From Nitrospirales bacterium (lineage in GTDB: Bacteria; Nitrospirota; Nitrospiria; Nitrospirales; UBA8639), in NCBI GenBank assembly GCA_029261235.1, contig JAJDBS010000169.1, forward strand, positions 1 through 64,000: 64,000 bases of DNA. Direction: 5' to 3'. Below are positions 20,851-64,000 of the stretch, one piece after another (the first letter of the stretch is position 1; the number at the start of each line of letters is the position of its first letter). The notes below the pieces were generated by a model. The model was not told the origin of the DNA. It searched no databases and saw only the letters and a program-made list of their open reading frames with translations. The position numbers and the translations under genes are program-made.

Positions 20851-20939
20851 GCCGGAGTGGCGGAACAGGCAGACGCAAGGGACTTAAAATCCCTCGGGCT
20901 TAACAGCCCGTGCCGGTTCAAGTCCGGCCTCCGGCACCA
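20851..20939 (+). tRNA. tRNA-Leu (anticodon TAA), CCA encoded
   Basis: Acceptor GCCGGAG/CTCCGGC, anticodon loop GGGA-CTTAAAA-TCCC, long variable arm, T arm GCCGG-TTCAAGT-CCGGC, terminal ACCA. Confidence 0.95.
20878..20939. repeat. att core, proximal copy (inside the 3' part of tRNA-Leu)
   Basis: 62-bp sequence agggacttaaaatccctcgggcttaacagcccgtgccggttcaagtccggcctccggcacca identical to 61142..61203. Confidence 0.93.
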
Positions 20940-24475: not shown

Positions 24476-24756
24476 AGGGAGTAACGGGTAACCTTTGCGC
24501 TTTTCCAACAATTAACAAATGACTATTGGGGGTTTCGAGGTGTCCGATATCCTGGGGGAAGATCAATCAAATACGTGAACAGTAATTTTGGCAAAAGAGG
24601 GTGTTAGAGAACTAATAGTAACTAGCCTAGATTTATTTAGAGTCGTGGGAGTAAACTTCGTCAGCGTAGGGGGGGACATGAAGGCCTCACTCAAATTTAT
24701 TCACTAGATAGTTTGGCTAGATGCTGGAACTGGGGTGAAACAAAGGAGTGTATGTG

Positions 24757-25359
24757 ATGCGACAAAAGTTTATCAGTTTCATTGGAGCAGTCTTGTCGAT
24801 ACTGTTGATAGGTAGCCAAGCCGCTGCGACTTCAATCTCTGTGGATGCGGATCCAGGGGCCGCTGGAATACAAAACACGGTGACGGTGATGCCCGGTAGT
24901 AGTTTTATGGTGGATATTGTGGTGGATATTATGGCTCCAGCGACCCTCAACGCCTTTCAGTTTGATTTAAACTTTGATGGCGGGCTTTTAACTCCCACCA
25001 ATGTGGTCGATGGCGGATTCCTTTTAGCGCCGGTATTTGCCGTACCAAGTATCCTCGGAGCTATGTCAGTTCAGTTTGCAGAGGCTACGCTGATTCCTGT
25101 CGGTGCCTCTGGAATGGGAACGTTAGCCACGATTACCTTCGATGCACTGGGTTCGGGAATGAGTCCGTTGACGTTGAGTAATGTCATCTTTTCTGCCCCC
25201 TTTGGCATGCCCCTCGCAATAGATCAGCAAAATAATGGGAGTGTCAATATCGCGCAGGGTAATCCGCCTCCTATCCCAGAACCAGCAACGCTCTTGTTGT
25301 TCGGAACAGGGTTAGCTGGCCTGGCTTTCTGGCGCTATCGCAAGGGGGTAAAAGTCTAA
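24757..25359 (+). CDS. PEP-CTERM sorting-domain protein with cohesin-like domain
   Basis: Signal peptide; SISVDADPGAAG...PGSSFMVDIVVDIMAPATLNAFQFDLNFDGGLLTP...GTLATITFDALGSGMSPLTLSNV (cohesin-like pattern); C-terminal IPEPATLLLFGTGLAGLAFWRYRKG. Confidence 0.8.
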   Translation: MRQKFISFIGAVLSILLIGSQAAATSISVDADPGAAGIQNTVTVMPGSSFMVDIVVDIMAPATLNAFQFDLNFDGGLLTPTNVVDGGFLLAPVFAVPSILGAMSVQFAEATLIPVGASGMGTLATITFDALGSGMSPLTLSNVIFSAPFGMPLAIDQQNNGSVNIAQGNPPPIPEPATLLLFGTGLAGLAFWRYRKGVKV

Positions 25360-28900: not shown

Positions 28901-31900
28901 TCACGATTATGGGAACAAATCTCTTACCGGCCACGCCGGGAGCGTTGTCGGTGACGCTCGCTCAACAAGGCGGCGGGAGAATCGAAGTACCGGTGACGAC
29001 GTCCCAGGATTCCACTGTCGTATTTACCGTACCCCCTGGAGCGACCACTGGTGATTTGGAAATTCTCATTGATCAACTGCCCGTACTCATACCTCCGTCA
29101 GCAACATTCACGGTCGTGGCATCAAGCAATTTCAGCCTGAGCGTAGAGCCATCTACTGCGGATCTCATTCAAGGACAATCGACAAGCTATAAAGTCACGT
29201 TGGATAGCAACACCGGGTTTACGCAACTGGCAGATCTGAGTGTCTCCGGTCTTCCTGCAGGCGTAACGGCAGATTTTACTCCGCCGCAAATTTCGGCAGA
29301 GCAAACAGCCATACTCACAATCATCGCCCTGGCCGCAGAACCGACCAGTTCAGCCAATCTGCTAGTCTCAGCCTCGGCAACAGTTGATGGCATTCTGCTC
29401 CAAGAAACCGGCAATGCCGCACTCAACATTCAACCAGTCACTACGTCGTTCATCGGGCGCACGGTGGTGGCAGATCCTTTGCAAACGTCCTTAGCAGGGG
29501 TAACGATCAAGATGCTGGGGCAGGATGGAAATGGAGGTTCGACGGGTTGCAGTGGAGAAGCAATTTCAGATGCTGCCGGAAACTTCACCATTTCGAATCT
29601 GCCGGTTGATTGCATCGGCAATCAACTCGTGCGGTTTGACGGAGCAACAGCTACCTTTCCGATTGGCGTGTACGCCGGAGTCGATAAACGCTACAATCTC
29701 GTGCAAGATCAAGTCACACAACCACCCGTTCTTGTGCATCTTCCGCGTATCGATAATGCTGATACCGTGATGGTCCAGCAAAACGCCACTGTTGATCAAT
29801 TCTTTACGTTCCCGACAATTCCGAATCTCTCGATCACCGTGTATGCAGGAACGATCTTTACATTAGAGAATGGCCAACAGCCCAATCCGTTCAAGCTTAC
29901 GGCTATAGAAATTCCAGTGGATCGTTTGCCAGGTGGGAATTTGCCAGCCAGCGCAAATGATGTAATTCCCTTCTTAGTAGGGTTCCAGCCGGCGAATACG
30001 AGGGTGAATCAGCCGGTACCGATCGCCTTCCCAAACACAGCCGCAACGCCGCCAGGGACTCAAGTGCCGCTCACGACACTCGATCCGACACAAGGCATTA
30101 TGGTCAATTACGGCACGGGCACCATCTCTCCAAATGGCACACAAATTCTCCCAGACTCCGATTCCTCGAATTCTGGAAAAAACTTTGGCCTCACCCATTT
30201 AGGTTGGCATGGGGGAAGGCCTCCGGCACCTGTTGATATTCCTGCCCCTCCGCCGCAAGATGTGGGTGGATGTAGTGCGCAGGCTGTGAATTTCAATTCA
30301 GGTCAGGAAGTTCAAATAAACACCGATATTGCATTTCAAGGGGCAAGAGGTTCTTTGATTATTCAGAGGGAATATTGGAGTGGGCGTTCCAATCAAGGTC
30401 CATTTGGGTTGAAAACGAGTCATAATTTTTCTCACAGATTGGACACGAATACTCCTGCGAATAGAGCGCTTATCTCTCTCATTTTGCCGGATGGTAATAG
30501 AATACCTTTTGCTCGTCAGACCGACGGAACGTATATCAATGAAACGACGCCGGCGGTTCGAGGCTCACAAATGCGGGTCGCGTCCAATGGAGAGGTAGAG
30601 CTCAAGTTAAAAAACTGCGATACGATGCTTTTCGTTCCTAGTACATTCCCGCTTGGGTCACTTTTGCAATCTAGAACTGATCGGAATGGCAATCAAATCA
30701 ATATAGAAAGAGATCCGAGTAATCCTGTACGCATAACAAAAATTATTGATCCTGTGGGGCGTTTTCTAACTCTCAGCTATGATCGCATAAATCGTATTAC
30801 CAAGATAAACGATCACACAGGGAGAACTGTTCAGTACACGTATAACCTCCAAGGTACGCTGGAAACTGTCACTGATCCAGAAGGAAAATTAAAGCTATAC
30901 GACTATGATGACCAAAATCGACTGACAAGGATAACCGATGCAAGAGGGCTGATTGTTTCAGAGCTAACCTATGGCAACAATGATCGAGTGGTACAGGAAA
31001 AAATGGCCGATGGTGGGATTATAAAATTCGACTACACTTTTTTGAATCCGCAGGTGCGGACGAGTCGAATTCTTATGACTAAAGTGACAGACCCATTAGG
31101 CCGTGTGACGAAGTATGATTATAACGCTCAGGGGTATCTAAAAAAAGTTACAGATGCATTGGGTCAAATCACGCTGTTCGAAAGAGAGATAGGGACTAAT
31201 TTAATTATCGCTCAGAGAGGGTTCGCTCGATGCACTATCTGTAGACATCCTGGTTCAGGTGATTCTAAATTTACCTACGACAATAATGGGAATGTTCTAA
31301 CCGTAACTAATTCGATGAATGAAACATCTATTTTTACTTATCACCCTATCATTAATAAAGTAACTTCATCCGTGGATCCCTTGGGGCATAAGACTACTGC
31401 TAGTTACGATAACAAAGGTAATCTTTCTGAGCTGGTTGACGAAAATGGAAATGTAACAACTTTTTCTTATAATGGTTTTGGATTGCCTACAAGAGTTATT
31501 GATCCTAATGGGTCAGAAACCCAATTTTCCTATGATGCTGAAGGAAATTTAATAACGGTTACTGATGCTCAAAAGCATGAAACCCGAATGGAATATGATG
31601 TTCTCTCAAGGCATCTCGCAACAATCGATCCTTTGGGAAGGAGACACGAGAAAAAGTATGACAAGCTTAATCGATTAATAGGGGTTAAGGATGCATTTGG
31701 CCAGGAGGCAACTTTCATCTACGACGAAGTGGGTAACGTCCTTAAGATCACTGATCCTAGAGGAAAAAGCAATGTATATACCTATGATAATTTGAATCGC
31801 ATGATTTCACGCACCGATCCTTTAGGACACATTGAAACTTTAGTTTATGATCTTGCGGGAAATCTAGTGGCCCTCACCGATCGAAGAGGCCACAGGAATC

Positions 31901-33546
31901 AATTTACATATGACGATATTGATCGATTGGTTCAAGAAAGTTATCAAGATGGGGCCAGAGTGTGGCGCTTTTACAGCCGACGAAGCCTCCTAATTAGAGT
32001 GGAGGATTCTTCTGGGGGAGTATATAGGGCCTCTTATGACCCAGTTGGTCGAATTCTTATTGATTCAAATTCCATTGGGCAAGTGAAATATACCTATGAT
32101 CGGATGGGCCATGTTCTATCCCGACAGGTTGTAGGACAACCAAGCGTGATATTTAGCTATGATCCTGTAGGAAATCTTCTGTCGGCAAGCCTGCCAAAGG
32201 CTTCCGCGAAGATGACCTACAGTTCTAGGAATTTTCTGGAGAACGTGGAGCTATCAAATGGTGTGAATAGTGGATATAAGTATGACACCCTGGGGCGATT
32301 AGAAACTGTAGTTCACTTAAAAGGTACGATGACTCTTGAAAAACAGGAATACAGCTATGATGCTGTGGGCAATCGCACGAAATCTACCGCCAATTTTGGG
32401 CAATCTCTCATAACCCAATCGACAGTCAATACTTTTGATGACAACAATCGAATGCTTAGTAGAGGACCCGTAACTTTTACTTATGATAGTAACGGGAATC
32501 GGTTGACTGAAACTGACACATTAGGGACAAAGAAATTTACATGGGATTCCAGAAATCGACTAGAAAGACTACACGAGCCTGCTGGTGAAACAACTTTTCG
32601 TTATGATTTTGCAGGAAACTTGGTGGAAAAAACTGATATTGATGGAAATGGAATTATTCGGAAGAAATTAGTCCTCGATGATTTAGGCAATTTGATCCAT
32701 GAATTCGAGTCCAATGGGCGGAATTTGAATGTATTATCAGGAGTGGGCGTTGACAGACATATTGCTATAACTCGTTCTAACGGAATTACCGAATTCAGTC
32801 TTGCAGATGGGTTGAATTCCACTGCAATTACCGTAGATAAGACAGGTCTTCAAACAGGGGCGTTCGGTTACGAACCCTATGGAGAAACCAAGACTAACAA
32901 TCCGTTCCCGTTTCAATACACTGGAAGAGTGCCAGTTTCAGATAACCTTTACTATTATCGCGCCCGATATTATGACCCCATAGCTGGACGTTTCTTGAGT
33001 GAAGATCCGATTGGATTTTCTAGCGGAGACGTTAATCTCTATGCCTATGTTCAAAATAATCCGATTAATATTGTAGATCCAAGTGGTTTAAAAGATAGAC
33101 CTCCTATATTTTGGCCCAATCCGAAGATACCTATTGGCCCACCAACTCCGATTAACCCCAATGATCCAAACGATCCCAATAATCAAGCTGGGTTTAATTG
33201 TCATTCCTATACTTGGCATGGTGGTTTGGGCGACCCGACCGATCCACGTAACAATAGGAGCTATCCCAGATGGGACCAAAATCCGAGCGATGATCTCGAT
33301 GGGTGGACGAAATTAGACCCGAACGATGATAACGTGATTGGAGACAGGGTCATCTACTGGAAGGATGATAATGGGGATCAGGTACGACAAGACAATGAAA
33401 TTACACACTCAGGTACAGTAACTGGCGTTGATCGAAAGGGATATACAACGGAAGTAACGAGTAAATGGGGGCAGCGTCCAATTTATCGTCATCATCCACA
33501 TGATGTTCCAAAGTCGTATGGTAGCAATCGAGACTATTACAGATAG
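25903..33546 (+). CDS. Giant secreted dockerin / MopE-repeat / Ig-like / RHS protein with C-terminal cysteine-hydrolase-like domain (2547 aa)
   Basis: Signal peptide; dockerin DLNDDGIVNILDISLAGSCFGQ...DLNHDNAIDLTDINILSGSFGQ; 4x 49-aa MopE-like repeats; Ig-like repeats; many YD repeats; RHS core YYYRARYYDPIAGRFLSEDPIGFSSGDVNLYAYVQNNPINIVDPSGL. Start GTG 25903 or ATG 25915. Confidence 0.9.
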   Translation: MLSTMPTPRQMANANHWLVSRLSLLLIVGLSSLFLLPTNLWASHDPDLNDDGIVNILDISLAGSCFGQDPTSNTQCQIADLNHDNAIDLTDINILSGSFGQTFPIDPTNPNDIDDDGDGFTEAQGDCNDGNAAINPDATDIPGNDIDEDCSGSDAPLDPLDVDDDGDGFTEAQGDCNDSNEAINPDATDIPGNDIDEDCSGSDAPLDPLDVDDDGDGFTETQGDCNDGNAAINPDATDIPGNDIDENCDGQDAPLDPLDVDNDGDGFTETQGDCNDSNAAINPDATDIPGNGIDEDCDGEDAALPNIASLEPAQLTILTSDSGTMTVQIQNPTVGQETFIDLSSAVPTIVDVPTQVSIQAGETSTTFQVTGLMVGGPVLITATLGISSATAEITVVDQPTPPGIVGPLAAGSTNITGSGVANALIDILVNTVQVSMGIIDANGMFDVVVPVIQTGDVVQATQTVNGFTSAPSVEVTVQPIPPAPMITVPVVEGMTEAQGTGQPGATVDLFINGASIATGVVPSTGAFTLPTPALIAGQQVTAIQMVAGIRSISSAPVAVVMMPAPPIITIPIVAGAQTVAGTGVNGATVEVSVDGNNVGTTTVNTSNTWSLTLAMALLATEEVQAKQVVNDVSSALSAAVKVVALPPPPVVTEPVVAGNSTISGTGSNGATIDIFVNSVSVGTASVNVAGLWEIQGLAALGAGQMIEASQTVGGVLSTLSAQVTVVAPPPPPVVSSPLITGETAISGTGTVGASVEVFVDNAPEGTTTVGMAGAWSVALMQALQTGQAVTATQTVSGISSLASVSVTAVAPPPIPTVTGPIFDGRTDVNGTGIVGASVDVFIDGSNVGSTNVDANGDWALMVSPVLQTGQAITATQTVAGIPSSPSAPIIVEEIVLTEIEIDPFPTAAVELNQAVQFSAKGMFSDGSMEDPLTNVVWNSDATNIVSIDTIGLATGQSLGMAKIHASRDGVDSLATIMSVMTAGSVITNFQPKSSSTGESITIMGTNLLPATPGALSVTLAQQGGGRIEVPVTTSQDSTVVFTVPPGATTGDLEILIDQLPVLIPPSATFTVVASSNFSLSVEPSTADLIQGQSTSYKVTLDSNTGFTQLADLSVSGLPAGVTADFTPPQISAEQTAILTIIALAAEPTSSANLLVSASATVDGILLQETGNAALNIQPVTTSFIGRTVVADPLQTSLAGVTIKMLGQDGNGGSTGCSGEAISDAAGNFTISNLPVDCIGNQLVRFDGATATFPIGVYAGVDKRYNLVQDQVTQPPVLVHLPRIDNADTVMVQQNATVDQFFTFPTIPNLSITVYAGTIFTLENGQQPNPFKLTAIEIPVDRLPGGNLPASANDVIPFLVGFQPANTRVNQPVPIAFPNTAATPPGTQVPLTTLDPTQGIMVNYGTGTISPNGTQILPDSDSSNSGKNFGLTHLGWHGGRPPAPVDIPAPPPQDVGGCSAQAVNFNSGQEVQINTDIAFQGARGSLIIQREYWSGRSNQGPFGLKTSHNFSHRLDTNTPANRALISLILPDGNRIPFARQTDGTYINETTPAVRGSQMRVASNGEVELKLKNCDTMLFVPSTFPLGSLLQSRTDRNGNQINIERDPSNPVRITKIIDPVGRFLTLSYDRINRITKINDHTGRTVQYTYNLQGTLETVTDPEGKLKLYDYDDQNRLTRITDARGLIVSELTYGNNDRVVQEKMADGGIIKFDYTFLNPQVRTSRILMTKVTDPLGRVTKYDYNAQGYLKKVTDALGQITLFEREIGTNLIIAQRGFARCTICRHPGSGDSKFTYDNNGNVLTVTNSMNETSIFTYHPIINKVTSSVDPLGHKTTASYDNKGNLSELVDENGNVTTFSYNGFGLPTRVIDPNGSETQFSYDAEGNLITVTDAQKHETRMEYDVLSRHLATIDPLGRRHEKKYDKLNRLIGVKDAFGQEATFIYDEVGNVLKITDPRGKSNVYTYDNLNRMISRTDPLGHIETLVYDLAGNLVALTDRRGHRNQFTYDDIDRLVQESYQDGARVWRFYSRRSLLIRVEDSSGGVYRASYDPVGRILIDSNSIGQVKYTYDRMGHVLSRQVVGQPSVIFSYDPVGNLLSASLPKASAKMTYSSRNFLENVELSNGVNSGYKYDTLGRLETVVHLKGTMTLEKQEYSYDAVGNRTKSTANFGQSLITQSTVNTFDDNNRMLSRGPVTFTYDSNGNRLTETDTLGTKKFTWDSRNRLERLHEPAGETTFRYDFAGNLVEKTDIDGNGIIRKKLVLDDLGNLIHEFESNGRNLNVLSGVGVDRHIAITRSNGITEFSLADGLNSTAITVDKTGLQTGAFGYEPYGETKTNNPFPFQYTGRVPVSDNLYYYRARYYDPIAGRFLSEDPIGFSSGDVNLYAYVQNNPINIVDPSGLKDRPPIFWPNPKIPIGPPTPINPNDPNDPNNQAGFNCHSYTWHGGLGDPTDPRNNRSYPRWDQNPSDDLDGWTKLDPNDDNVIGDRVIYWKDDNGDQVRQDNEITHSGTVTGVDRKGYTTEVTSKWGQRPIYRHHPHDVPKSYGSNRDYYR
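26038..26211 (+). other. Type I dockerin-like module
   Basis: Two DxNxDGxxNxxD-type Ca-binding repeats. Confidence 0.75.
26242..26829 (+). repeat. Four in-frame 147-bp tandem repeats (49-aa MopE-like metal-binding repeat)
   Basis: DDDGDGFTEAQGDCNDGNAAINPDATDIPGNDIDEDCSGSDAPLDPLDV x4. Confidence 0.92.
33085..33546 (+). other. Variable C-terminal domain after the RHS core, NlpC/papain-like cysteine hydrolase candidate
   Basis: NCHSYTWHGG...GDRVIYWKDDNGDQVRQDNEITHSGTVTGV...TSKWGQRPIYRHHPHDVPKSYG: candidate Cys/His catalytic residues. Confidence 0.5.
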
Positions 33547-49256: not shown

Positions 49257-49280
49257 TTGGAAGGAATAACTATCAAGCCT

Positions 49281-50075
49281 ATGCGATCATATCTTTCGAT
49301 GTTTGTCGTATGTGTTTTCGTCTCGGCCTGGAGTCAACCTGTTACCTTTGCGGAACTTCCACGAACTGAGTCCACCAATCAAGCTATTCTTGATCACCTT
49401 GATGCATTGCATGAAGAAGTGAAGGCTTTACGAGGTGAGGTCGGCCAATTGCGACAAGCCGTCAAGGAAATTCATCGGTCTACCATTACCGTTCCATCTG
49501 CTCCTTCTTCTCCTCAAAACTCTGAGCCCATCGATGTAGCCTTGGGCGATGGGCCTTCGTTGGGAAATGCCAACGCTACCGTTGGCATTGTGGAGTTTAC
49601 GGATTATGAATGCCCGTTTTGCCAACGATTTCATACTCAGTCTTTTGGCAAAATCAAGGAGACGTATCTTGACTCAGGAAAGGTTCGATATTTTCTAAGA
49701 AATTTCCCATTGGGTTTCCACGCTCAGGCTAAACCGGCTGCTCTGGCAGCGTATTGTACGGGTGAACAGGGGCAGTATTGGGAGATGTCGCATGAACTGT
49801 TTATGAACCAACGAAAGTTGGGTGTTGAATTGTATAATGACCTGGCCGATACCTTAGGAGTACACGAAACTGAATTTCACGCTTGTTTGGAAAATCCTGG
49901 AAACCTCCAGAGAATCGAAGCCGACCTCACGTATGGCAAAAGTATTGGGGTTCGTGGCACACCTAAATTTTTTATCGGCCGCATCCAGGATGGAAAACTT
50001 GTGAGTACCAAACAGATTTCTGGTGCCCAACCCTTTGCCGCCTTCCAACGAGTTTTGGATTCTTTACTTCAATAA
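49281..50075 (+). CDS. Secreted DsbA/thioredoxin-like protein with N-terminal coiled coil
   Basis: Signal peptide; LDALHEEVKALRGEVGQLRQAVKEIHR; VGIVEFTDYECPFCQRFH...KVRYFLRNFPLGFHAQA; GVRGTPKFFIG. Confidence 0.88.
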   Translation: MRSYLSMFVVCVFVSAWSQPVTFAELPRTESTNQAILDHLDALHEEVKALRGEVGQLRQAVKEIHRSTITVPSAPSSPQNSEPIDVALGDGPSLGNANATVGIVEFTDYECPFCQRFHTQSFGKIKETYLDSGKVRYFLRNFPLGFHAQAKPAALAAYCTGEQGQYWEMSHELFMNQRKLGVELYNDLADTLGVHETEFHACLENPGNLQRIEADLTYGKSIGVRGTPKFFIGRIQDGKLVSTKQISGAQPFAAFQRVLDSLLQ

Positions 50076-50531: not shown

Positions 50532-53500
50532 ATGAATTATAGCTTGAGCGGCATGTTCCTTCGATACATTTTTGCTCTAATGATTCTGATCATTGGATTC
50601 GTTACGGGCAGTCAAACAGTTTTTGCCAGCCATGATCTTGACCTGAATGACGATGGCATCGTCAATATTCTGGATATTTCGCTGGCAGGGAGTTGTTTCG
50701 GGCAAGACCCGACCGCCAATGCCCAATGTCAGGTGGCAGACATCAATCACGATAATGTCATTGATTTGGCTGATATCAACATCCTGTCCGGGAGTTTCGG
50801 GCGAACCTTCCCGACCGATCCCACTGACCCTAATGATGTCGACGACGATGGTGATAACTTCACAGAGAACCAGGGTGATTGTAACGACGGCAATGCCAAC
50901 ATTAATCCCGGGGCCACGGATATTCCGGGTAATGGGATCGATGAGGATTGTAACGGCACCGACGCGGAGCCGGATCCCAACGACGTAGACAATGACGAAG
51001 ACGGGTTCACCGAAAACCAAGGAGATTGTGATGATTCGAATGCAGGGCTCAACCCTGCGGCCACTGATATTCCAGGGAATGGAGTCGATGAAGATTGTAG
51101 TGGCGGAGATGCAGAGCTCGATCCTAACGATGTCGACAATGATGGAGATGGATTCACAGAGAACCAGGGTGATTGTAACGACGGCAATGCAACGATTAAT
51201 CCAGGGGCCACGGATATCCCTGGTAATGGTATTGACGAAAACTGTGCTGGACAGGATACGCCCTTAGACCCGAGCGATATTGACAATGACGGCGATGGGT
51301 TCACAGAAAATCAAGGTGACTGCGACGATACGAATCCGAATATCTTCCCCGGTGTGGCAGATCTTCCGGGTAATGGTATCGATGAAGATTGTGATGGACA
51401 GGATGCATCACCACCACCTGATTTGAAAGTATCTTCGAGTGTGTTCTCCGACTCCGACAATTCTTACTCGACAGGAAATGTCATCAGGATTGATATTGAA
51501 CAGCCGGAGGAAGGTCCACAGTTTGACAGTGGAACAATCCGGATTACCTCGGAATCGCAAGCTTATGATTCTGGTGAACAGCCGCTTTTATTTGGGTCTA
51601 TCTTTTTTCTGTGGGATACCACCGGGCTCCCCCCGGCTGATGATTATCAGACGACCGTATCCTTGACAAATATTACGGGTGAAACGACTACAAAAGATGG
51701 AGCTATTAAGCTTAAGTTAGAGCCCAACCCGCCAGTGATCAATAAACTTGTTAGTGATTTGGATGTCAATTTCCCTGCGGTGGGATTGCCAGTTCGAGTC
51801 GTTAGAACTTACTTGTTGGATTCAACCTTTGATGGTCCTATGGGATATGGATGGACCCATTCTTATGGCATGCGGATTGTGGAGTCGCTTGGAAGTATCC
51901 GCAAAACACTCACCAATCCTCCTAACGAAGGATCGATCCAGGTTTTTAACGCGGATGGAACTGCATCTTTCTTTACAGCAAATGGTGACGGAACCTTTCA
52001 AGCTCCGAAAGGAGACTTTCGAACATTAACGAAAAAAGCAGATGATTCGTATCTGCTCAAAGAAAAATATGGCAAGCAATTTCATTTTGATGCATTAGGA
52101 AAGTTGTTGGGAATTGAAGATTCAAACGGAAATGTTCTTACATTTAGCTACAACCCTATAGAACGGTTAGACAAGATTACAGATGCCTCAGGCCAAGTGA
52201 CGATATTTGCATATAATGCTGACAATCGAATTTCCTCGATCACGGAACCATCGGGAAGATCAGTTACTTATGGGTACGACACAGAAGGAAACCTTATATC
52301 AGTAAGGGACTTTAGTGGTGCCATCACGACCTATGTTTACGACAGCACTCACAATATAACCACCCTTACCGATCCATCTGGCCGGCGACAATTCTTCATC
52401 ATAAATGGTGATGATCGCTTAGAGAGTTTTTTTTCTGAGGGAGGTGTGAACAAAACGACTTTCCAATACTTCTTACCCTCACCAAACCAAATGACAATGA
52501 TTGATGCATTGGAAAACAAAACTATTCTGACTTATGACAGTAATGGGTTGATTACAAAAAGAACCGATTCTTTAGGAAACTCCACAACAACATCTTTCGA
52601 TGCCGATTTCAATGTGATAAGTGCGACCGATGCCAATGGAGCCCAAGACACATTTACTTATGACTCGAAAGGAAATCTTTTATCTGTAAAAGATCCGCAG
52701 GGGAAAACCGTAATCTTTACATATGAACCTACATTTAATCAGCTTTCAAGCTACAGAAATGATAACGGAAATCCAACAACTTTTACTCATGATGCGAACG
52801 GTAACCTCACTAGCATCAACCGCGCTAACGGTGCCGTAGAAAGATTGACCTATAATTCTATTGGTACAATAACTAGTATTTCTGATGGAAATAACAATAC
52901 AACCCTCTTTACTTCTAACGCACAGGGTAATGTGACAATGATAACCTATCCGGATGGTTCTACTGAATTTTTTTCGTACGATCCAATGGGGAATCTCATT
53001 AGCAAAGCAAGCAGACGGAACCAAACCATCAATTATTCATATGATCTGATGGGAAGGTTATTAATGAAAATATTTCCGGATAATTCTTCTCACACCTTTT
53101 CTTACGATGCTGCAGGGAGGGTTAAGAGTGCATCAGCCGCTAACGGAACAATTGGTTTCGTCCATGATTCTGTTGGGAGGCTTGCGCAAGTCCTTTATCC
53201 TAGTGGAGAAACCGTATCACACGGATATGACAGTAATAGTAACCGCTCTCGGTTAGTCTACCCTGATGGAACCGTGGTTGATTATAGTTTTGATGCTCTG
53301 AATCGCATGAAACAGATAAGCAAGGCTGGCCAAATCAAAGCTAAATACATGTATGATCCCAGTGGCAGAATTGTCCAACGAGATTTGGAGAATGGGATCT
53401 TTACTACTTACAGCTATGATGTTTCCAATCAGTTATCGAACCTTACAAATCGCAATTCAACATCTCAGATTATATCTAGTTTTTCCCATACCTATGGTAT

Positions 53501-56500
53501 TCAAGGTAACAGACAAACTAGAACTACTCCTCAAGGGACTACTCAATATGTTTATGATTCCGCTAGTCAATTAACGGGCGTGGTATTTCCCAATACTTCA
53601 ACAACTACTTACAACTTGGATCCGGCTGGGAACAGAACTTCGGTAGTTGTAGGTGGCAATTCAACTGCTTACATCGTTAACAATTTAAATCAGTATACTA
53701 CTGTAGGAACGGATTCCTACACCTATGATTTAAATGGCAATAGGGAAAGTAAAACTACTCCAAAAGGCACAACCTTTTATAAGTATGATTTTGAAAATCA
53801 GCTCATTCAGGTAAATACACCTACCGAAGCCGTTTCATTTACCTATGACCCGCTTGGCCGGAGAATTTCAAAGACAACGACTAGCGGGATAACAAATTAT
53901 TTTTATGATGGTCTTCAAGTTATCATGGAAAAAAATATTGCTGGTGCGGTGCAAGCCAAGTTTTTTCACGGGCAACGAATTGATGAATTACTCATAATGC
54001 AGAGGGGTGGCGTAGATTACTTCTATAACCATGATTCCTTGGGAGGTGTCAGTAACATTACAAATCTTTCAGAAAATGTCATTGAGTCGTTTACTTATGA
54101 CTCGTACGGAGTCCCAGACAATGTAAGTCTATTAGGAAATTCGAACCTCTTTACAGGAAGAGAATATGATTCAGAAATTGACTTATATTATTACAGGGCA
54201 AGGTACTATGACCCGACTATAGGGGGATTTTTAAGTGCGGATCCTATTAGCTATTTAGGCGGGTTAAATTTATATACCTACGTCTTTAATAATCCAACTA
54301 ACTACGTAGATCCGTATGGTAATTTTGCCATAATATGGCCAGTTATTATTACTGCTGACGCAGCTATAAAATGGGGCTTGATTGGGACTGCTGCTTATTT
54401 AGCTTGGAAGGGAGATGTAGTACGAAACGGATTGCGAGTAGCGGCTGCAAAAGTTAAGGTGCCGAGGATAAGTACGTGGGACCCAGAGAACCCATCCAAA
54501 GGACCACCGCCGAAATTTCCAAAAAAATGGGGAAAAAAACTTTTGCCTTGGGTGCTGGGGGCGTTAACATTTACAAAGCTAGGACAAGCCTTAAACCCTC
54601 AAATAATAAATCCAGAAACTGGTGAGCCATTAGAAGATCCAGGAAACACGCCTGGTAACCCAGATCCTCCAGATCCCCCAGATCCCCCAGATCCCGTGGA
54701 TTGTACCACTGAGCCGGAGAAATGTACCTGTTCAGAGGAAGATCCTCTTATGTGTCGGCCGATCGACTGTACCACTGAGCCGGAGAAATGTACCTGTTCA
54801 GAGGAAGATCCTCTTATGTGTTCTCCCGATCCGACTTTTGTTCAGGCTCCGCCTGCATTCGGTGTCCAAGACTACAGGGTTCGGCTTGGCAGGGTCCAGC
54901 ATGAAATATGGCAGAATCACCAAGCTGACGGGCTCTCGGCAAAGATACTTGTGCCCTATGAAGATGCGTTAGTTCGGGCGGACATCCCTATTTCTGGGTT
55001 CGCGTATGGTGCAGATTTCAAGGAGTACCGTGTTGAATTTGGGGAAGGGGAGAATCCGTCGGAATGGTTCATGCTCACTTCTTCCACGACATCCCAGACC
55101 GAAGAAACCAAAGTATCCGATCTTGATGATTCCTTGAATATTACAATTCAGGGCAATCTGGCGAACTGGGATACGGGATTGAGAAATTATGAGTATTTGC
55201 CGTCGTATCCCAAGGACCATCCCATTAATTATAAGGGGACTCACACCATACGGTTGGTGGTGACTGGTGAAGATGGAAACACGGTTGAAGATCGAGTGAC
55301 TGTTCATGTGGCCAATGTGATTCCCAATGCCTGGGGTGGCCGAGTGGTCAGTCCGGATGAGAAGGTCGTGTTGACTGTTCCGGAGCAAGCTCTGCGTGAT
55401 TCATTCCGCCTCATCTTAATTCAACCAGAGGCCGATTCAACGCTCTCTCTATCAGAGGGCCGAAGCCTCATTGGTAGCGTCTATGAGGCGCGTGAACCAG
55501 GCGAACGCTTTACAAAACCGGCTGTGCTTCGGATGGCCTTTACGGCCAAAGAGCTTGGCCAATCGCGACCGGATCAACTTGGGATTTATGGCTATGACGC
55601 AAAGAAAGGCGAATGGGAATATTTACCATCCTACCGGCAGCTCGATGATGACAATGCCGTCTTAGCCAATGTGCGACATCTGCATGCGCGGTATGCCCTC
55701 ATGGTGAGCTCTTTGTCTATGGAAGGGTCTACGCTTCAGCCTGCTGCAAAACCTGATGTTGCTGTTCACCATGTGAGTCTTGGCACATCCTCCGGTCATT
55801 ATTTGATACAGAACACTTTTGAGGATGGGTTGGCTGAATGGTCGAACCGTAGCAGTGATATGGGCGGGGAAATCTCCCTGGACGACCAGGTTACCTTTGA
55901 TGGGACGAAGGCCTTAAAGATTACCAATACCCACGAAGGCGGAAACTTTGCGGTGACGGTGCGAACTACTGCCTTTGATGCTCGGGAGTACCCGCTTGTT
56001 CAGTTTGACTATCGTATTCCACCCGATGTGAAGACCAACGTGTTTGTCAAAGTGAACGGGCGTTGGTATGAAGTCGGGTTTACGGATGATCCGAAGGATC
56101 TCGATGCTCAGCGGGTGAATATTGCCCATATCGGGGATATTGCCGAGGTGACGGCTGATGATACCTGGCATACCGCCACCTTTAATCTCTATGACATGCT
56201 TCGTACGAAAACACGGCATAGTCAGGTCGAAGAAATCATCATGGCCGACTGGGATGTGCCAGGCTATATGAAACTCCAATTTGGACACAATTTTGAAGGT
56301 GCCACTTATTACATTGATAATTTTAGTCTTAGCCGAGGTATCTCACCTGGGTTACAAATGCACAGTGACACCATATTGGTGGATGACTTTAACCAAAAGA
56401 AGAGCACGAATTCGTTTAATGCCCTGACGACGGTGTTTACCAGTGAGGAGAGTGACTCTGTGGAGCCTGACTTTAGTGTTGAAGATGCACAGGGTAAAGG

Positions 56501-57374
56501 CCATGCACTTCGGTTGGCTTACGATGTGTCTGAAGAAGGCAGCTATGGCGGTTATCTCAGCCCTCTTCCTCATTTGGACCTCTGGGAATATGATCGATTG
56601 TCCTTCTTCGTGAAAAGCGATGAAGGAGCGCAGGACCTCTTTGTTGGCTTGAAAGATGCCAATGGTCAAGAAAGTAAGGTCCTTATTGGTTCGTATCTTC
56701 CTCAGGGACTTTCTTCAGAATGGCAAAAGGTTACCATTCCACTTGTGGCGTTTTCGAACATCGTAGACTGGGGTGGCGTTGATTTATTGAGCTTCTCCTT
56801 TGCATATCCTTTTCATAGTCAAGGCGTAGTTCTTCTCGATCAGTTAGCATTCCAAAAAGGAATTAAACATATTCTCGTTGATAATTTTGAACGTGACGAA
56901 GACAAGAACGCAGTTGATGGACCCTACTGGACTTTTGTGAATGGGAACGCCGCGATCAATGGGAAGCGCACGCACAATTCCCCCAATGGGATCTATCGCC
57001 TGTCGTTTGGCGGCAATATTGGCAAGATTAAAGCTTATGCTAGTGATGTGAAATCCTTTGCGGGTTGGACTACGCAGATCGGAGGCATTGATTGTTCTCA
57101 ATGTGAGCAGTTGTCCTTCCATGTTCGCGGAGCGGAAGGTGGAGAAAACGCCACGATTTATCTGGATGATGGAAATTTCCGCTGGGGTCTGGAGCTTGCC
57201 AAGTTTGCCAAAATCACAACGGATTGGCAGCAAGTCACTATTCCCGTTGAGATGTTTGCTGAGGCCGGGGTGGACCTTTCCCACTTGGACAAACTCCATG
57301 TCATGTTCGAAGGGTGGAACATGTCCGGTACGATTTATTTAGATGATATTCAGTTAGGAGCACAGGTGAATTAG
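50532..57374 (+). CDS. Giant secreted dockerin / MopE-repeat / RHS protein with ~900-aa carbohydrate-binding-like C-terminal extension (2280 aa)
   Basis: DLNDDGIVNILDISLAGSCFGQ...DINHDNVIDLADINILSGSFGR; 4x MopE-like repeats; YD repeats; RHS core YYYRARYYDPTIGGFLSADPISYLGGLNLYTYVFNNPTNYVDPYG; then repeated ILVDDFN.../ILVDNFER... beta-sandwich-like units. Confidence 0.9.
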   Translation: MNYSLSGMFLRYIFALMILIIGFVTGSQTVFASHDLDLNDDGIVNILDISLAGSCFGQDPTANAQCQVADINHDNVIDLADINILSGSFGRTFPTDPTDPNDVDDDGDNFTENQGDCNDGNANINPGATDIPGNGIDEDCNGTDAEPDPNDVDNDEDGFTENQGDCDDSNAGLNPAATDIPGNGVDEDCSGGDAELDPNDVDNDGDGFTENQGDCNDGNATINPGATDIPGNGIDENCAGQDTPLDPSDIDNDGDGFTENQGDCDDTNPNIFPGVADLPGNGIDEDCDGQDASPPPDLKVSSSVFSDSDNSYSTGNVIRIDIEQPEEGPQFDSGTIRITSESQAYDSGEQPLLFGSIFFLWDTTGLPPADDYQTTVSLTNITGETTTKDGAIKLKLEPNPPVINKLVSDLDVNFPAVGLPVRVVRTYLLDSTFDGPMGYGWTHSYGMRIVESLGSIRKTLTNPPNEGSIQVFNADGTASFFTANGDGTFQAPKGDFRTLTKKADDSYLLKEKYGKQFHFDALGKLLGIEDSNGNVLTFSYNPIERLDKITDASGQVTIFAYNADNRISSITEPSGRSVTYGYDTEGNLISVRDFSGAITTYVYDSTHNITTLTDPSGRRQFFIINGDDRLESFFSEGGVNKTTFQYFLPSPNQMTMIDALENKTILTYDSNGLITKRTDSLGNSTTTSFDADFNVISATDANGAQDTFTYDSKGNLLSVKDPQGKTVIFTYEPTFNQLSSYRNDNGNPTTFTHDANGNLTSINRANGAVERLTYNSIGTITSISDGNNNTTLFTSNAQGNVTMITYPDGSTEFFSYDPMGNLISKASRRNQTINYSYDLMGRLLMKIFPDNSSHTFSYDAAGRVKSASAANGTIGFVHDSVGRLAQVLYPSGETVSHGYDSNSNRSRLVYPDGTVVDYSFDALNRMKQISKAGQIKAKYMYDPSGRIVQRDLENGIFTTYSYDVSNQLSNLTNRNSTSQIISSFSHTYGIQGNRQTRTTPQGTTQYVYDSASQLTGVVFPNTSTTTYNLDPAGNRTSVVVGGNSTAYIVNNLNQYTTVGTDSYTYDLNGNRESKTTPKGTTFYKYDFENQLIQVNTPTEAVSFTYDPLGRRISKTTTSGITNYFYDGLQVIMEKNIAGAVQAKFFHGQRIDELLIMQRGGVDYFYNHDSLGGVSNITNLSENVIESFTYDSYGVPDNVSLLGNSNLFTGREYDSEIDLYYYRARYYDPTIGGFLSADPISYLGGLNLYTYVFNNPTNYVDPYGNFAIIWPVIITADAAIKWGLIGTAAYLAWKGDVVRNGLRVAAAKVKVPRISTWDPENPSKGPPPKFPKKWGKKLLPWVLGALTFTKLGQALNPQIINPETGEPLEDPGNTPGNPDPPDPPDPPDPVDCTTEPEKCTCSEEDPLMCRPIDCTTEPEKCTCSEEDPLMCSPDPTFVQAPPAFGVQDYRVRLGRVQHEIWQNHQADGLSAKILVPYEDALVRADIPISGFAYGADFKEYRVEFGEGENPSEWFMLTSSTTSQTEETKVSDLDDSLNITIQGNLANWDTGLRNYEYLPSYPKDHPINYKGTHTIRLVVTGEDGNTVEDRVTVHVANVIPNAWGGRVVSPDEKVVLTVPEQALRDSFRLILIQPEADSTLSLSEGRSLIGSVYEAREPGERFTKPAVLRMAFTAKELGQSRPDQLGIYGYDAKKGEWEYLPSYRQLDDDNAVLANVRHLHARYALMVSSLSMEGSTLQPAAKPDVAVHHVSLGTSSGHYLIQNTFEDGLAEWSNRSSDMGGEISLDDQVTFDGTKALKITNTHEGGNFAVTVRTTAFDAREYPLVQFDYRIPPDVKTNVFVKVNGRWYEVGFTDDPKDLDAQRVNIAHIGDIAEVTADDTWHTATFNLYDMLRTKTRHSQVEEIIMADWDVPGYMKLQFGHNFEGATYYIDNFSLSRGISPGLQMHSDTILVDDFNQKKSTNSFNALTTVFTSEESDSVEPDFSVEDAQGKGHALRLAYDVSEEGSYGGYLSPLPHLDLWEYDRLSFFVKSDEGAQDLFVGLKDANGQESKVLIGSYLPQGLSSEWQKVTIPLVAFSNIVDWGGVDLLSFSFAYPFHSQGVVLLDQLAFQKGIKHILVDNFERDEDKNAVDGPYWTFVNGNAAINGKRTHNSPNGIYRLSFGGNIGKIKAYASDVKSFAGWTTQIGGIDCSQCEQLSFHVRGAEGGENATIYLDDGNFRWGLELAKFAKITTDWQQVTIPVEMFAEAGVDLSHLDKLHVMFEGWNMSGTIYLDDIQLGAQVN
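50841..51428 (+). repeat. Four in-frame 147-bp MopE-like repeats
   Basis: DDDGDNFTENQGDCNDGNANINPGATDIPGNGIDEDCNGTDAEPDPNDV and three related copies. Confidence 0.9.
54702..54821 (+). repeat. Perfect 54-bp direct duplication (66-bp period) encoding a Cys-rich motif
   Basis: tgtaccactgagccggagaaatgtacctgttcagaggaagatcctcttatgtgt at 54702-54755 and 54768-54821 (CTTEPEKCTCSEEDPLMC). Confidence 0.93.
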
Positions 57375-57712: not shown

Positions 57713-58603
57713 ATGCGGTGTCGAATTTTTATCCTTGTTGTGCTTACCTCCCTTTTCTGGCTGCCTGATCCGCCAGTTACTGCAACGGAAGTACGAGAAA
57801 TCCAGTTGGTCTCACCTGCGATTGCGTATCAACCACGCGATTTCTCCCCTGGGTCTGAAGATTCACCCTCTGGTCGAATACAAATAGTTAAAGAACTTCG
57901 TTTGCTTCACCAACAAGGATTTCGAAGCCTTGTGACCTATAGTTCACGTGGTGTGTTAGGCGATATTCCTGAAATTGCACGTGAACAGGGATTTTCTGGC
58001 ACGATTATTATGGGCGTGTGGGATATCTTTTCGAAAGAGGAGTGGGCGCATGCTTTAGATCAACAGACTTTTGTTGATGGCTATTGTTTAGGGAACGAAG
58101 GGCTTGGAATTCGTTACACTCCTGATGAATTGGCGGAGAAAATGACGAGGCTTAAGGGTGTTACCGGAAAGCCAGTGAGTACGACGGAGCCCATCGACCG
58201 TTATCTCGATGGACCGTATCGAGAATGGCTATTGAACCATTCCGACTGGCTTTTCCCTCTCGCCCTACCATTTTGGGCTGGGCAAATTGAGCCACAGCGG
58301 GCTGTCGATTGGGTTGTCGCCCGCTCTGATTATCTTCAGGCCATCACTGCGAGGAAGGTGATTCTCAAAGAAGCCGGGTTTCCCTCTGCATTGTCTGAAG
58401 GGCAATCCGAAGAGACGCAACTTGAATTTTTTCAGGCTTTAGAAGCTAGCGGTTTAACGTATTTTTATTTTGAGGCCTTTGATCAACCCTGGAAACATCA
58501 GATGTTTCAGGAACCGGAGTTTGAAGCCCATTGGGGCATGTATCGTGCTGATGGCGCACCCAAGAAAGTGATGAAATGGTTGGCCTCAAGGTGGGCGCAA
58601 TGA
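57713..58603 (+). CDS. GH17-like beta-1,3-glucanase/glucanosyltransferase
   Basis: GYCLGNEGLG (acid/base NE), VILKEAGFPS (nucleophile region), YFEAFDQPWKHQMF...EAHWGMYRADGAPK. Confidence 0.78.
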   Translation: MRCRIFILVVLTSLFWLPDPPVTATEVREIQLVSPAIAYQPRDFSPGSEDSPSGRIQIVKELRLLHQQGFRSLVTYSSRGVLGDIPEIAREQGFSGTIIMGVWDIFSKEEWAHALDQQTFVDGYCLGNEGLGIRYTPDELAEKMTRLKGVTGKPVSTTEPIDRYLDGPYREWLLNHSDWLFPLALPFWAGQIEPQRAVDWVVARSDYLQAITARKVILKEAGFPSALSEGQSEETQLEFFQALEASGLTYFYFEAFDQPWKHQMFQEPEFEAHWGMYRADGAPKKVMKWLASRWAQ

Positions 58604-59289
58604 AGCTGATCATAGTGGTCCTAGCTGGGGTGTTGGGACTTCTTACGACTTCCATCGTTCCTGTATGGGGATCGACTGGTGGTGTCACCAATGTCGGGGC
58701 GTTCTCATCTAGTGCGGGGCATTTCACTGGTATTCGTGAATGGATTGAACTAGAAGATCACGGTGGGATTTTGAAAGGATCTCTTTCTCATGAATTGCTG
58801 AAATTTATCACTGTGCATGCCCCTGGTGTCAAAAGTGGACACATCATTTTCCGTGAGCTAAAAACTGTCGATGGAAGACGATCGTTCTTGCTCACGGCGC
58901 CAGATGCTCTGATGGATGCCATTAAACGGGTGACTCTTTTCTTGGGACCTCAACTCGGCTCTCTAGAACTGTATGAACAAGTTGACAATCTTTGGCTCAA
59001 ACGTTTGCCACAGTCGCTTCGAGTTGCTGATCATCATCGCCCCGATAGTCCACCCCAAGATTTGCTGGCTTTTTCGTTACAGAAGCCTGGGTTTTTCTGG
59101 GTTATGGAGTCTTCATCTTCTTCATTGGATCACGCATTATTTGTTCCGCAGGGTTCTTCGGCCACCTCCTTAATGGGAGGCAGCATATTATGGGGAATTT
59201 CTGCTTGGGCCGCCGCCATTCTTCTCCTATCTCTAGGCTGGTTCATTTCGCGGCGACTTCATGCTTTTGATCAATTCGTGGGGAAATAG
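58600..59289 (+). CDS. Hypothetical protein with C-terminal transmembrane segment, between GH17 and GT2
   Basis: ATGA overlap with GH17 stop (ATG 58600); C-terminal GISAWAAAILLLSLGWFISRRLH. Confidence 0.65.
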   Translation: MKLIIVVLAGVLGLLTTSIVPVWGSTGGVTNVGAFSSSAGHFTGIREWIELEDHGGILKGSLSHELLKFITVHAPGVKSGHIIFRELKTVDGRRSFLLTAPDALMDAIKRVTLFLGPQLGSLELYEQVDNLWLKRLPQSLRVADHHRPDSPPQDLLAFSLQKPGFFWVMESSSSSLDHALFVPQGSSATSLMGGSILWGISAWAAAILLLSLGWFISRRLHAFDQFVGK

Positions 59290-59290
59290 C

Positions 59291-60814
59291 ATGGCCTGGT
59301 CTGCCATTTTTCTTTTATCCGCACAAATCTTACTCCTACTTATTTTTTCATTTTTTTCATTTTTTAACTATCTGTATGGCTTTGCCAGTTTATTTTCGCC
59401 AAGAATTCAACGGACTACGCCTTCAGGGCAGAAAGTTGCCGTTGTTATTGTGGCCTTCAATGAGGAATACGTTTTGGAAGACACTATTCGTGCCTGTGAT
59501 CGTTTAACCTATTCCAATAAGGTGCTGATCGTGGCTGATGATTCTTCTGATCCAGCTGTGGTTGAAAGGCTTCGAGTTATCGCTCAACAACGCGGATGCC
59601 AGCAGGTCTTTGATCATCCTTTCTCACAAGAGATTCCTCAACCTTCTGGACTATCATTGTGCCAACCTATTGAAATTTGGGAGTCGCCTGATTTCATCCT
59701 CTTTCACCGGCCTTCCAATGTGGGATTCAAGGGTGGCAGTCTTCAACAGATCCACGGCTTTCTTGAAAGTCGCAGCATTGAGTTGATGTATTTGCTTGAT
59801 GCGGATTGGCAGCCACAGCCAGATACGTTAGAGAGAACCTTGGAGGCCTTGGAAGTAGATCGGGAAACTGCCTTTGTTCAAACGAAACGCATCTCTCCGC
59901 AGAAGGGGATGAATCTCTTTCAAAAATATGTCGCGTTGGTTGAGGAAGGATGTTATTACGTGGATTTCGAAGGACGCCAAATTCTTGGGCATCCCACATT
60001 ATTTTCTGGCTGTTGTACCTTGTTCCGATTACAGGCAATCAGAGACGTGGGGGGCTTTACTCCTGGTCATCTTACCGAAGATTTAGATCTTACGAATCGT
60101 TTCTGGCTGTCAGGCTGGAAGGGGGTTTATCTAGCCAATGTGATTAATTATGGAGAAGTCCCGTTTTCCTATGATCATTACCGACGGCAACAAGAGCGAT
60201 GGGCTGCTGGAACCGCTCGATCGTTGCGTGAGTATTTTTGGAAACTTTTATGCTCTCCTAGGCTCCGTTTGATCGAAAAACTTTCCGCGATTCGCCAGAA
60301 TGCCTATTTTTCGACCACCGTCTTGACGGGCATCGCCATCCTTCTTGGAATGATCACTATTGGATGGCTGACATTTGGATGGAATAGTTATGAGGTTGAA
60401 TATTATTTGTATCTTCTTGAGCCGGTCAAAATGCCCTTTGCCTTCATTGTCTATTTTTGCATCCTTTCCAACTTTGTTGAGCCGGTTATCATGGTCCTTG
60501 TTAAGAAAAAGACCCATCGCGATCTCTTCCACATTCCCATGATGATCTGGTATGCCTGGAGCGTGCTTTTAACTTATATCATCGGTAACATCAAAGGGTT
60601 TTTTGGAATAAATCTTGGATGGTTCCGTACTCCTAAATTTTACCGAGATCAAGTTGGCCAATTATCTGGTAGCCCAGTTTCCATCCGGATTCTCAATTTT
60701 TGTGTTTGCATAACTATTCTGGGTTTTTATTTCAGTGAAGGCTGGGTCTTTGGGTGGTTCGATACGTTTGGGCTTTTGCTAATCCCGGCTTTTCTCATTT
60801 CCTCAATCAAGTAG
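59291..60814 (+). CDS. Membrane GT2-family glycosyltransferase (cellulose-synthase/beta-glucan-synthase-like)
   Basis: VAVVIVAFNEEYVLEDTIRACD; LLDADWQPQPD; GHLTEDLDLTNRFWLSGWK; QQERWAAGT (QxxRW); C-terminal TM helices. Confidence 0.88.
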   Translation: MAWSAIFLLSAQILLLLIFSFFSFFNYLYGFASLFSPRIQRTTPSGQKVAVVIVAFNEEYVLEDTIRACDRLTYSNKVLIVADDSSDPAVVERLRVIAQQRGCQQVFDHPFSQEIPQPSGLSLCQPIEIWESPDFILFHRPSNVGFKGGSLQQIHGFLESRSIELMYLLDADWQPQPDTLERTLEALEVDRETAFVQTKRISPQKGMNLFQKYVALVEEGCYYVDFEGRQILGHPTLFSGCCTLFRLQAIRDVGGFTPGHLTEDLDLTNRFWLSGWKGVYLANVINYGEVPFSYDHYRRQQERWAAGTARSLREYFWKLLCSPRLRLIEKLSAIRQNAYFSTTVLTGIAILLGMITIGWLTFGWNSYEVEYYLYLLEPVKMPFAFIVYFCILSNFVEPVIMVLVKKKTHRDLFHIPMMIWYAWSVLLTYIIGNIKGFFGINLGWFRTPKFYRDQVGQLSGSPVSIRILNFCVCITILGFYFSEGWVFGWFDTFGLLLIPAFLISSIK

Positions 60815-61141: not shown

Positions 61142-61203
61142 AGGGACTTAAAATCCCTCGGGCTTAACAGCCCGTGCCGGTTCAAGTCCGGCCTCCGGCA
61201 CCA
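61142..61203. repeat. att core, distal copy (orphan 62-bp tRNA-Leu 3' end)
   Basis: Identical to 20878..20939; preceded by non-tRNA sequence (cactcaaaat), so not a functional tRNA. Confidence 0.93.
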
Positions 61204-61680: not shown

Positions 61681-63189
61681 TCATTGTGTTGCGTGATATC
61701 CCCTGAGCGATAGTGTGCGCCTCGGTGCATGCTGTAAGGCTTGTTCGAATTCTTTCTTCGCCATTTCTAGCTGACCCAGTTTCATCAAAACCTCTCCCAA
61801 CAGTTCATGTGTGGGTTTAATCGGAATGGGTGGCCCATAATCGTAGGGCAAGCTATCCTCAAGGACAGCCGCTTCCTTCATGACTGACAAAGCCTTTTGG
61901 GGTTTAGATTCTTGAAGCAGGATCAAGGCCTCAAGTTCTTTCATCATACCCAGCGCGGCACCTTCATCTCGTGAAAGGGAAGCGGCTTGTGATGGCTGGA
62001 TTCGCTCGCTCATCTGGGCGAGCATCTGTTTTGCGATGGCAAGGTTATCAGTGTTCACTGCACTCATGCCGATGGCAAAGAGTTCACTCGCGGCAAAAGA
62101 AAATTCCAATCCTGATCGATCGTGATTGATATGGCGAATATCCCATTCTTCGGTCTCCACGATATAGATGGCTCGCATGGAAGCCAAGTAGCCATTGGCG
62201 TAGAGGGAAGAGGTCGCCTTTGCATCAGCCTCAATGAGATTGAGTAACTGTTTCGCATCCTGAACCCGTCCGACTTGCAAGTAGGCATACATGAGCCATT
62301 TCAACGTGTGATATGGTCGAGTCAGCACGGACAGCCCTTTTCGTGTGATGCGAGCTTCACTTGAGGCCCAGGCGGCTTCATTTGCCGTGATGACCTCATC
62401 CCACATTCCTAAAGGCATGAAGATATGAGACGGCATATGTTGCGCATGGGAGGCTAGCGGGGCGAGGGATGCATAGACTCGTGCCGCTCTCAATCCTAGT
62501 GGGGCGTGAATCGGATCATCATAGGCATGTATCAGGTAATGGGCGGCTCCGGGATGTGTGGGGTTCTTGTGAAAGATTTCCTCCGCAATGGCGGCTGCTT
62601 TCATGTACGTGGCCATCTCACGTTCGCCTTGCGCACTTCCCAGGATTGCCAAGGCATAAAAGGCCGATGCTTCTTGCTTATCAGGAAAGTCTTCTGTGAG
62701 CTGTCGCATCAGATCGAGATAGGCTTTGTCGCGTGTCGGTTTGTTGCCTTCTCCATACAAGGCATTGATCGCTCTCAGATACCCTTGTTCCCATTTGGTT
62801 GGTGCGTTCGCTAATCGCATGTCAGGATTTGGCGCAAGGCGATGCAGTGCTGCACGACCTTCATCAACATCCTGCTCATTCCAGAGCGGATGGTTCGCGG
62901 TCATGGCTTCCCCCCAATAGGCCATGGCGAAATTTGCATCGAATGTCTGAGCCTGACGAAACGCTTCTCGCGCATCGTCGTACTCAAAGTTATGAAGAAG
63001 GAAGACGCCGCGTAAGAACCAGGGTTTCGCCTGTCGTAATCCTGAGTTTGGGAAATCTATAGATTCGACGCCAGCTATTGGGTTTACGTTGGCCAAGGTT
63101 GAGGACACGTCGGCTGATGAAACGAGAGCAGGTGTCGCGAAGGTCAGGATTGCGGCGATGCAAGAGGTCATAATAATACTGATGTTCAT
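61681..63189 (-). CDS. TPR-repeat protein, secreted
   Basis: PWFLRGVFLLHNFEYDDAREAFRQAQTFDANFAMAYWGEAMTANHPLW...; signal-peptide-like start. Confidence 0.78.
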   Translation of the reverse strand: MNISIIMTSCIAAILTFATPALVSSADVSSTLANVNPIAGVESIDFPNSGLRQAKPWFLRGVFLLHNFEYDDAREAFRQAQTFDANFAMAYWGEAMTANHPLWNEQDVDEGRAALHRLAPNPDMRLANAPTKWEQGYLRAINALYGEGNKPTRDKAYLDLMRQLTEDFPDKQEASAFYALAILGSAQGEREMATYMKAAAIAEEIFHKNPTHPGAAHYLIHAYDDPIHAPLGLRAARVYASLAPLASHAQHMPSHIFMPLGMWDEVITANEAAWASSEARITRKGLSVLTRPYHTLKWLMYAYLQVGRVQDAKQLLNLIEADAKATSSLYANGYLASMRAIYIVETEEWDIRHINHDRSGLEFSFAASELFAIGMSAVNTDNLAIAKQMLAQMSERIQPSQAASLSRDEGAALGMMKELEALILLQESKPQKALSVMKEAAVLEDSLPYDYGPPIPIKPTHELLGEVLMKLGQLEMAKKEFEQALQHAPRRTLSLRGYHATQ

Positions 63190-63718: not shown

Positions 63719-64000
63719 CTAGGACTTTGGTCGTAAGGGGAGGGGCAGTTCGAGAGGGGCTTTTTTCTTTTCTGGTTTTCGGACGAGACCGGGTCTCGCC
63801 TTCAGAATCCAGTCGATAGCTTGCTCGTTGTAGTTGCGGAGTTGGCCATAGATGATGGATCGCATGTTGTTGACGGTATCAACATAATTATCGAAATTTT
63901 CTTGCGTTATTTCTTCAGGGGCTACTCGTAATAATGTGGGGAGCAGGCAGCTTTCACACCCAGAGGCTTGTTCTTGGTAGGCGGCATACACAAAATATTT
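63719..64000 (-). CDS. Hypothetical protein, N-terminus beyond window edge
   Basis: ORF 63719..63991 starts with GTG and the frame is open to the edge (KYFVYAAYQEQASGCESCLLP...). Confidence 0.5.
   Translation of the reverse strand, partial: KYFVYAAYQEQASGCESCLLPTLLRVAPEEITQENFDNYVDTVNNMRSIIYGQLRNYNEQAIDWILKARPGLVRKPEKKKAPLELPLPLRPKS

Follow-up and report, generated by a model that had tools for sequence, protein, structure and literature searches.

A GH17–GT2 gene cassette with a carbohydrate-binding partner at the distal end of a tRNA-Leu island in a Nitrospirales genome, and its putative role in beta-glucan synthesis

Introduction

What is made by a GH17 gene, a small membrane protein gene and a GT2 synthase gene that lie together at the end of a genomic island, and does this set descend from the known NdvB synthases? 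These questions are raised by the window analysed here, a stretch of 64,000 nucleotides from a Nitrospirales bacterium. An earlier note on this DNA had called the three genes a split NdvB-like beta-glucan module, carried as island cargo next to a protein with carbohydrate-binding-like domains.

The island and its tRNA-Leu locus

The genes belong to a 40.3 kb island, whose two borders are exact 62-bp copies of the 3′ end of tRNA-Leu(TAA) and which carries an integrase. The integration target, tRNA-Leu (anticodon TAA; 20851–20939, plus strand), was identified by ARAGORN and by an Rfam tRNA match, and no RNA element other than this tRNA was found. The proximal att repeat (20878–20939) lies within the tRNA gene; its exact copy, the distal att repeat (61142–61203), was recovered also by DNA search, which confirms the distal att site that had been proposed. 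ORF 20987–22072, on the minus strand, encodes the tyrosine integrase of the island (PF00589, E=1.2e-25). An integrase beside the tRNA, direct repeats of the tRNA 3′ end and absence from some relatives, the marks of a tRNA-integrated island, were all found, and the gene trio sits just inside the distal end.

This tRNA-Leu and its left flank recur in congeners. Two of them (G007 and G009) encode integrases 82–86% identical to that of the island at this tRNA, with additional copies of att at distances of about 12.7 and 41 kb, and in four others (G010, G014, G017 and G019) the same tRNA-Leu has no adjoining integrase; thus, this is a recurrent island type with variable cargo. The G009 and G007 loci (L113–L117) hold related islands with different cargo, and that of G009 encodes several proteins of more than 2,000 aa.

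The right flank of the island (contig C78, 61204–72613; the window ends at 64000) is unlike the right flanks of the congener tRNA-Leu loci and is perhaps a second, tandem element. At its end, the segment 72169–72612 reads like a phage tail-sheath protein. The TPR gene at 61681–63189 was discarded as a right-flank marker, its congener relatives being just 38–49% identical and none of them lying in the tRNA-Leu stretches examined.

The gene trio

The back-to-back arrangement described earlier was verified ORF by ORF, with all three genes on the plus strand. ORF 57713–58603 encodes a secreted GH17 enzyme of 296 aa; ORF 58600–59289 encodes a small membrane protein of 229 aa; and ORF 59291–60814 encodes a GT2 processive beta-glycan synthase of 507 aa. 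The likely start of the membrane protein is at 58600, in an ATGA overlap with the GH17 stop, and is preferred to the mechanical ORF start at 58576, which is too early. The likely start of the GT2 gene, at 59291, is one base past the TAG stop of the membrane protein gene. The trio is not a chance arrangement, since for each of its proteins full-length relatives in synteny occur in other genomes. Scans for promoters and terminators yielded nothing beyond weak matches to the consensus, and literature searches returned no description of a CBM protein–GH17–membrane protein–GT2 cassette.

The GH17 enzyme begins with one hydrophobic, signal-like segment, as shown by hydropathy. Its single sequence scored 13.3 bits against Pfam, under the cut-off of 28.2, and the Pfam GH17 search of the genome gave no match anywhere, with the controls likewise unmatched. 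The assignment to GH17 comes from a profile of the enzyme and its relatives, which matched 4wtp (E=5e-14), a solved beta-1,3-glucanosyltransferase (4wtp/4wtr), and the GH17 enzyme 6fcg (E=4e-11). The acid/base is Glu129 (codon 58097–58099), in a GNE motif, and the nucleophile is Glu220 (codon 58370–58372), in KEAGFP, which corresponds to the E-x-G-[WFL]-P motif; both residues are kept in 23 of the 23 aligned GH17 sequences. In a tree of Omnitrophota, sister-genus and proteobacterial GH17s, the cassette enzymes joined those of Omnitrophota and the sister genus, and a single clade with P. aeruginosa NdvB was rejected (AU p=1.1e-5).

In the sister genus, a second GH17 adjoins groEL, with purL close by, and solo GH17s of Omnitrophota lie in the vicinity of groEL or immediately ahead of purB-purL-like genes (loci L016, L019, L015 and L041–L043). 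These surroundings represent either an old common neighbourhood or a coincidence.

The small membrane protein presents two hydrophobic segments by hydropathy, a signal peptide and the single C-terminal TM helix, which enclose a beta-sandwich ectodomain of ~170 aa. No match was found for it in Pfam, NCBIfam or PDB. The AF2 model (pLDDT 71, with most core blocks above 80) predicts a beta-sandwich-like fold followed by a long C-terminal helix, and fold searches that used it as query found nothing in the PDB at E<=0.001. A weak match to an unnamed viral fold (rmsd 10.9) was set aside.

The GT2 synthase matched PF13632 (E=3e-24) and, by profile, the BcsA structures. In the alignment its processive motifs are complete (DDS, GFKGG, DAD, TED, QQERW and WFRTPK), the last of them occupying the position of the BcsA gating motif FxVTxK; the roles of these motifs follow published work (PMC10237404). 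Hydropathy indicates at least five hydrophobic segments, with N- and C-terminal TM helices, and a Pfam search of the 507 aa gave no PilZ match. Its score against the NCBIfam CelA model was 56.6, the cut-off being 699. A search of the plasmid collection returned matches of 23–27% only, and the predicted structure had a pLDDT of 45, so that no fold comparison was drawn. In the GT2 tree the synthase and its sister-genus relatives formed a long private branch, outside the BcsA pair and grouped with no characterised synthase, so that its sequence does not reveal which sugar it uses or which linkage it forms. A single clade with P. aeruginosa NdvB was again rejected (AU p=0.011), in a tree of 19 sequences with long branches, one NdvB and no CrdS, which makes this a weaker test than that of GH17.

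The carbohydrate-binding partner

ORF 50532–57374, on the plus strand, encodes an RHS-repeat protein with a CBM-bearing C-terminal part (PF05593, CBM30 and CBM_11, all above cut-off). The conserved cassette begins with the CBM-bearing part itself (54795–57374, plus strand), whose relatives precede GH17 in five sister-genus genomes. These C-terminal 859 residues are 50–52% identical to stand-alone proteins of ~900 aa in the sister genus, and their profile matches solved structures of the CBM30/44 and CBM11 types. The CBM11 and CBM30 families are known for binding beta-1,4 or mixed-linkage glucans, not pure beta-1,3-glucans. The link of the module with this neighbour is stronger than was first claimed, as the CBM part has the same distribution and gene order as the trio.

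A DsbA-like thioredoxin-fold protein with a CPFC motif (49257–50075), recognised from its translation, lies between two giant surface proteins. A PEP-CTERM protein (24748–25359) has a cohesin match just short of the cut-off (23.6 against 24.1 bits), and two RHS proteins of the island (25903–33546 and 50532–57374) have N-terminal dockerin-like matches; to judge from these matches, they may possibly form a cohesin–dockerin surface pair.

Distribution and the sister-genus locus

Searched in one and the same set of 147 genomes, close relatives of the GH17 enzyme (53–59% identity), the GT2 synthase and the CBM part were found in the same six: this genome and the five examined species of a sister genus (5/5). 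Elsewhere among the 147 only more distant GH17s were found. The membrane protein is kept in the same manner, in six genomes including the five of the sister genus (5/5), and is absent from the others among 396 genomes of the phylum, except for one weak match (E=6e-4) that is broken by stop codons. The joint presence of the cassette spans divergences of 35–63% identity, and GH17 and GT2 are separate genes in all six genomes. The cassette was found in none of the 20 congeners, including the four that share the tRNA-Leu locus without an integrase beside the tRNA; a module at this locus in island-free relatives, which would have argued against island cargo, was therefore not seen.

In the sister genus the gene order is a short RHS lipoprotein-like gene, the ~900-aa CBM protein, GH17, the membrane protein and GT2 (the G039 contig stops short of the first of these genes). 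The set is flanked on one side by a MutS2-like gene and a gene for a predicted TPR-plus-barrel protein, and on the other by a methyltransferase/groEL/purL stretch, and no tRNA occurs in ~40 kb around it. The cassette is a chromosomal fixture of the sister genus, not visibly on an island, and is island cargo only here. The description of the module as island cargo is thus borne out for this genome and fails as a general rule, given its chromosomal position beside housekeeping genes in the sister genus.

The divergently placed TPR protein of ~617 aa, with an outer-membrane barrel-like part (L018:10154–12010 and equivalents), occurs in the five sister-genus genomes only, and no relative was detected in the present genome, which is 83% complete. 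Its predicted architecture makes it a candidate exporter.

Proposed function and alternative readings

We propose, with a probability of about 0.6, that the CBM-tailed surface protein, the GH17 enzyme, the membrane-anchored helper and the GT2 synthase form a four-part cassette at the distal end of the island that builds, trims and binds a beta-glucan. The GT2 synthase would polymerise the beta-glucan from UDP-glucose and extrude it across the inner membrane. In the periplasm, the secreted GH17, acting either as an editing hydrolase or as a transglycosylase, would cut the emerging chain and may re-join it. Facing the periplasm, the small beta-sandwich protein with its TM anchor would guide or otherwise assist the process, and the secreted CBM protein would retain the polymer on the cell surface or beyond it.

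The proposal draws on the joint presence and constant order of the genes, the intact catalytic residues, the GH17 match to 4wtp/4wtr, the CBM-type repeats, the membrane topology given by hydropathy and the NdvB precedent. Gene order, catalytic motifs, joint distribution and island borders were seen in the sequences themselves; the product sugar, its linkage, its linear or cyclic form, the role of the helper and the binding of the product by the CBM part are what we infer. A glucan is suggested by the specificity of GH17, by the CBM11- and CBM30/44-like repeats and by the tight linkage of the genes. Characterised GH17 enzymes are in the majority hydrolases, and their substrates are chiefly beta-1,3-glucans (PMC11005184); since the family is mostly beta-1,3-active, the product probably contains beta-1,3 linkages. 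The CBM families speak for beta-1,4 or mixed linkages no less than for beta-1,3, so that a mixed-linkage glucan is possible. Counting against the proposal are the GT2 branch that joins no characterised synthase, the preference of CBM11 and CBM30 for linkages other than pure beta-1,3, and the failure to detect in this genome a relative of the TPR-plus-barrel protein that adjoins the sister-genus cassette.

A genuine split NdvB, in which the GH17 and GT2 halves of a proteobacterial synthase were separated and would make a cyclic beta-1,3(-1,6)-glucan, is very improbable. The domain pair is the same, the GFKxG and FRTPK motif variants are in common, and P. aeruginosa ndvB is the best named GH17 match in the plasmid collection (33%), yet both AU tests reject an NdvB clade, the GH17 groups with stand-alone enzymes of Omnitrophota, and the GT2 profile places NdvB (39 bits) below generic GT2 (93 bits) and the cellulose/BgsA-type synthase (74 bits). 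The label "split NdvB-like" keeps its value for the GT2/GH17 pairing and the shared plan; as a statement of descent it is largely refuted. As the NdvB clade is rejected for both proteins, the pairing seems to have arisen independently of NdvB, with the same plan realised by members of other branches of these enzyme families.

The lead of the cellulose/BgsA-type synthase over NdvB in those profile scores agrees with a linear-glucan synthase of the Bcs/Crd/Bgs style, in which GH17 would be an editing hydrolase in the place of BcsZ/GH8 and the membrane protein a BcsB-like periplasmic partner. In its gene plan the cassette parallels bcsA-bcsB-bcsZ, with a GT2, a periplasmic beta protein held by a TM anchor and a secreted glycoside hydrolase, and the TPR-plus-barrel protein, predicted from sequence, adjoins the sister-genus cassette. 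Against this, no solved protein, not even BcsB, is detectably similar to the membrane protein, the synthase has no PilZ domain, and the hydrolase is a GH17 and not a GH8; we regard this alternative as unlikely, while giving it real weight. That the genes are mere neighbours, GH17 degrading external beta-1,3-glucan such as algal or fungal laminarin and GT2 making an unrelated surface sugar, would suit the hydrolytic majority of characterised GH17s and the Omnitrophota relatives that occur alone, away from any GT2. The ATGA and 1-bp junctions and the strict joint presence in six genomes across such divergences argue against it, no transporter or other degradative CAZyme was recognised in the cassette, and we consider it very improbable.

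The four-part glucan cassette may be extended, tentatively, to a more specific and doubtful reading: an independently evolved GH17–GT2 machine for a private polysaccharide that attaches or anchors one large RHS/CBM surface protein, with a new helper family, mobile as a unit on the tRNA island. If the glucan reading is right, GH17 and GT2 have come together in such a machine on more than one occasion; this would argue that certain beta-glucan synthases generally require a GH17 to cut their product, and the strictly linked CBM protein would offer a testable case of a bacterium that makes the polysaccharide bound by its own surface protein. In addition, the cassette brings to light a helper family yet to be characterised and a branch of synthases without a known product.

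Comparison with known systems

The cassette is well bounded and functionally coherent, with ordinary enzyme families in an unusual assembly, a strict CBM partner and an uncharacterised helper. Its GH17 is closest to the stand-alone Omnitrophota enzymes and to the second GH17 found in the sister genus, with which it shares the motifs GNE, KE-x-G-x-P and FEAF-x(3)-WK; unlike the cassette gene, the Omnitrophota genes are solo, without an adjoining GT2 or membrane protein gene.

The mixed-linkage glucan system BgsBA and the curdlan system crdASC likewise pair a membrane-bound beta-glucan synthase of family GT2 with an accessory protein. The cassette differs from them in the presence of GH17 and the lack of an HlyD-type partner, and its GT2 does not group with BgsA in a tree that did not include CrdS. 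The cellulose operon bcsABZC has a GT2, a TM-anchored periplasmic beta protein and a secreted glycoside hydrolase, as the cassette does, and all of the GT2 motifs; the cassette has GH17 instead of GH8, a helper of 229 aa unrelated by sequence, and no PilZ.

The Pseudomonas NdvB, an 'Orphan' GH17–GT2 synthase, likewise combines a periplasmic-side GH17 domain with a processive GT2, and the transglycosylation of beta-1,3-glucan by NdvB GH17 domains is a functional precedent for the cassette (PMC10237404). Both systems have the catalytic Glu pair, and in both the BcsA motifs take the variant forms GFKxG and FRTPK. While GH17 and GT2 are fused in NdvB, the cassette keeps them as separate genes and adds a membrane protein and a CBM partner.
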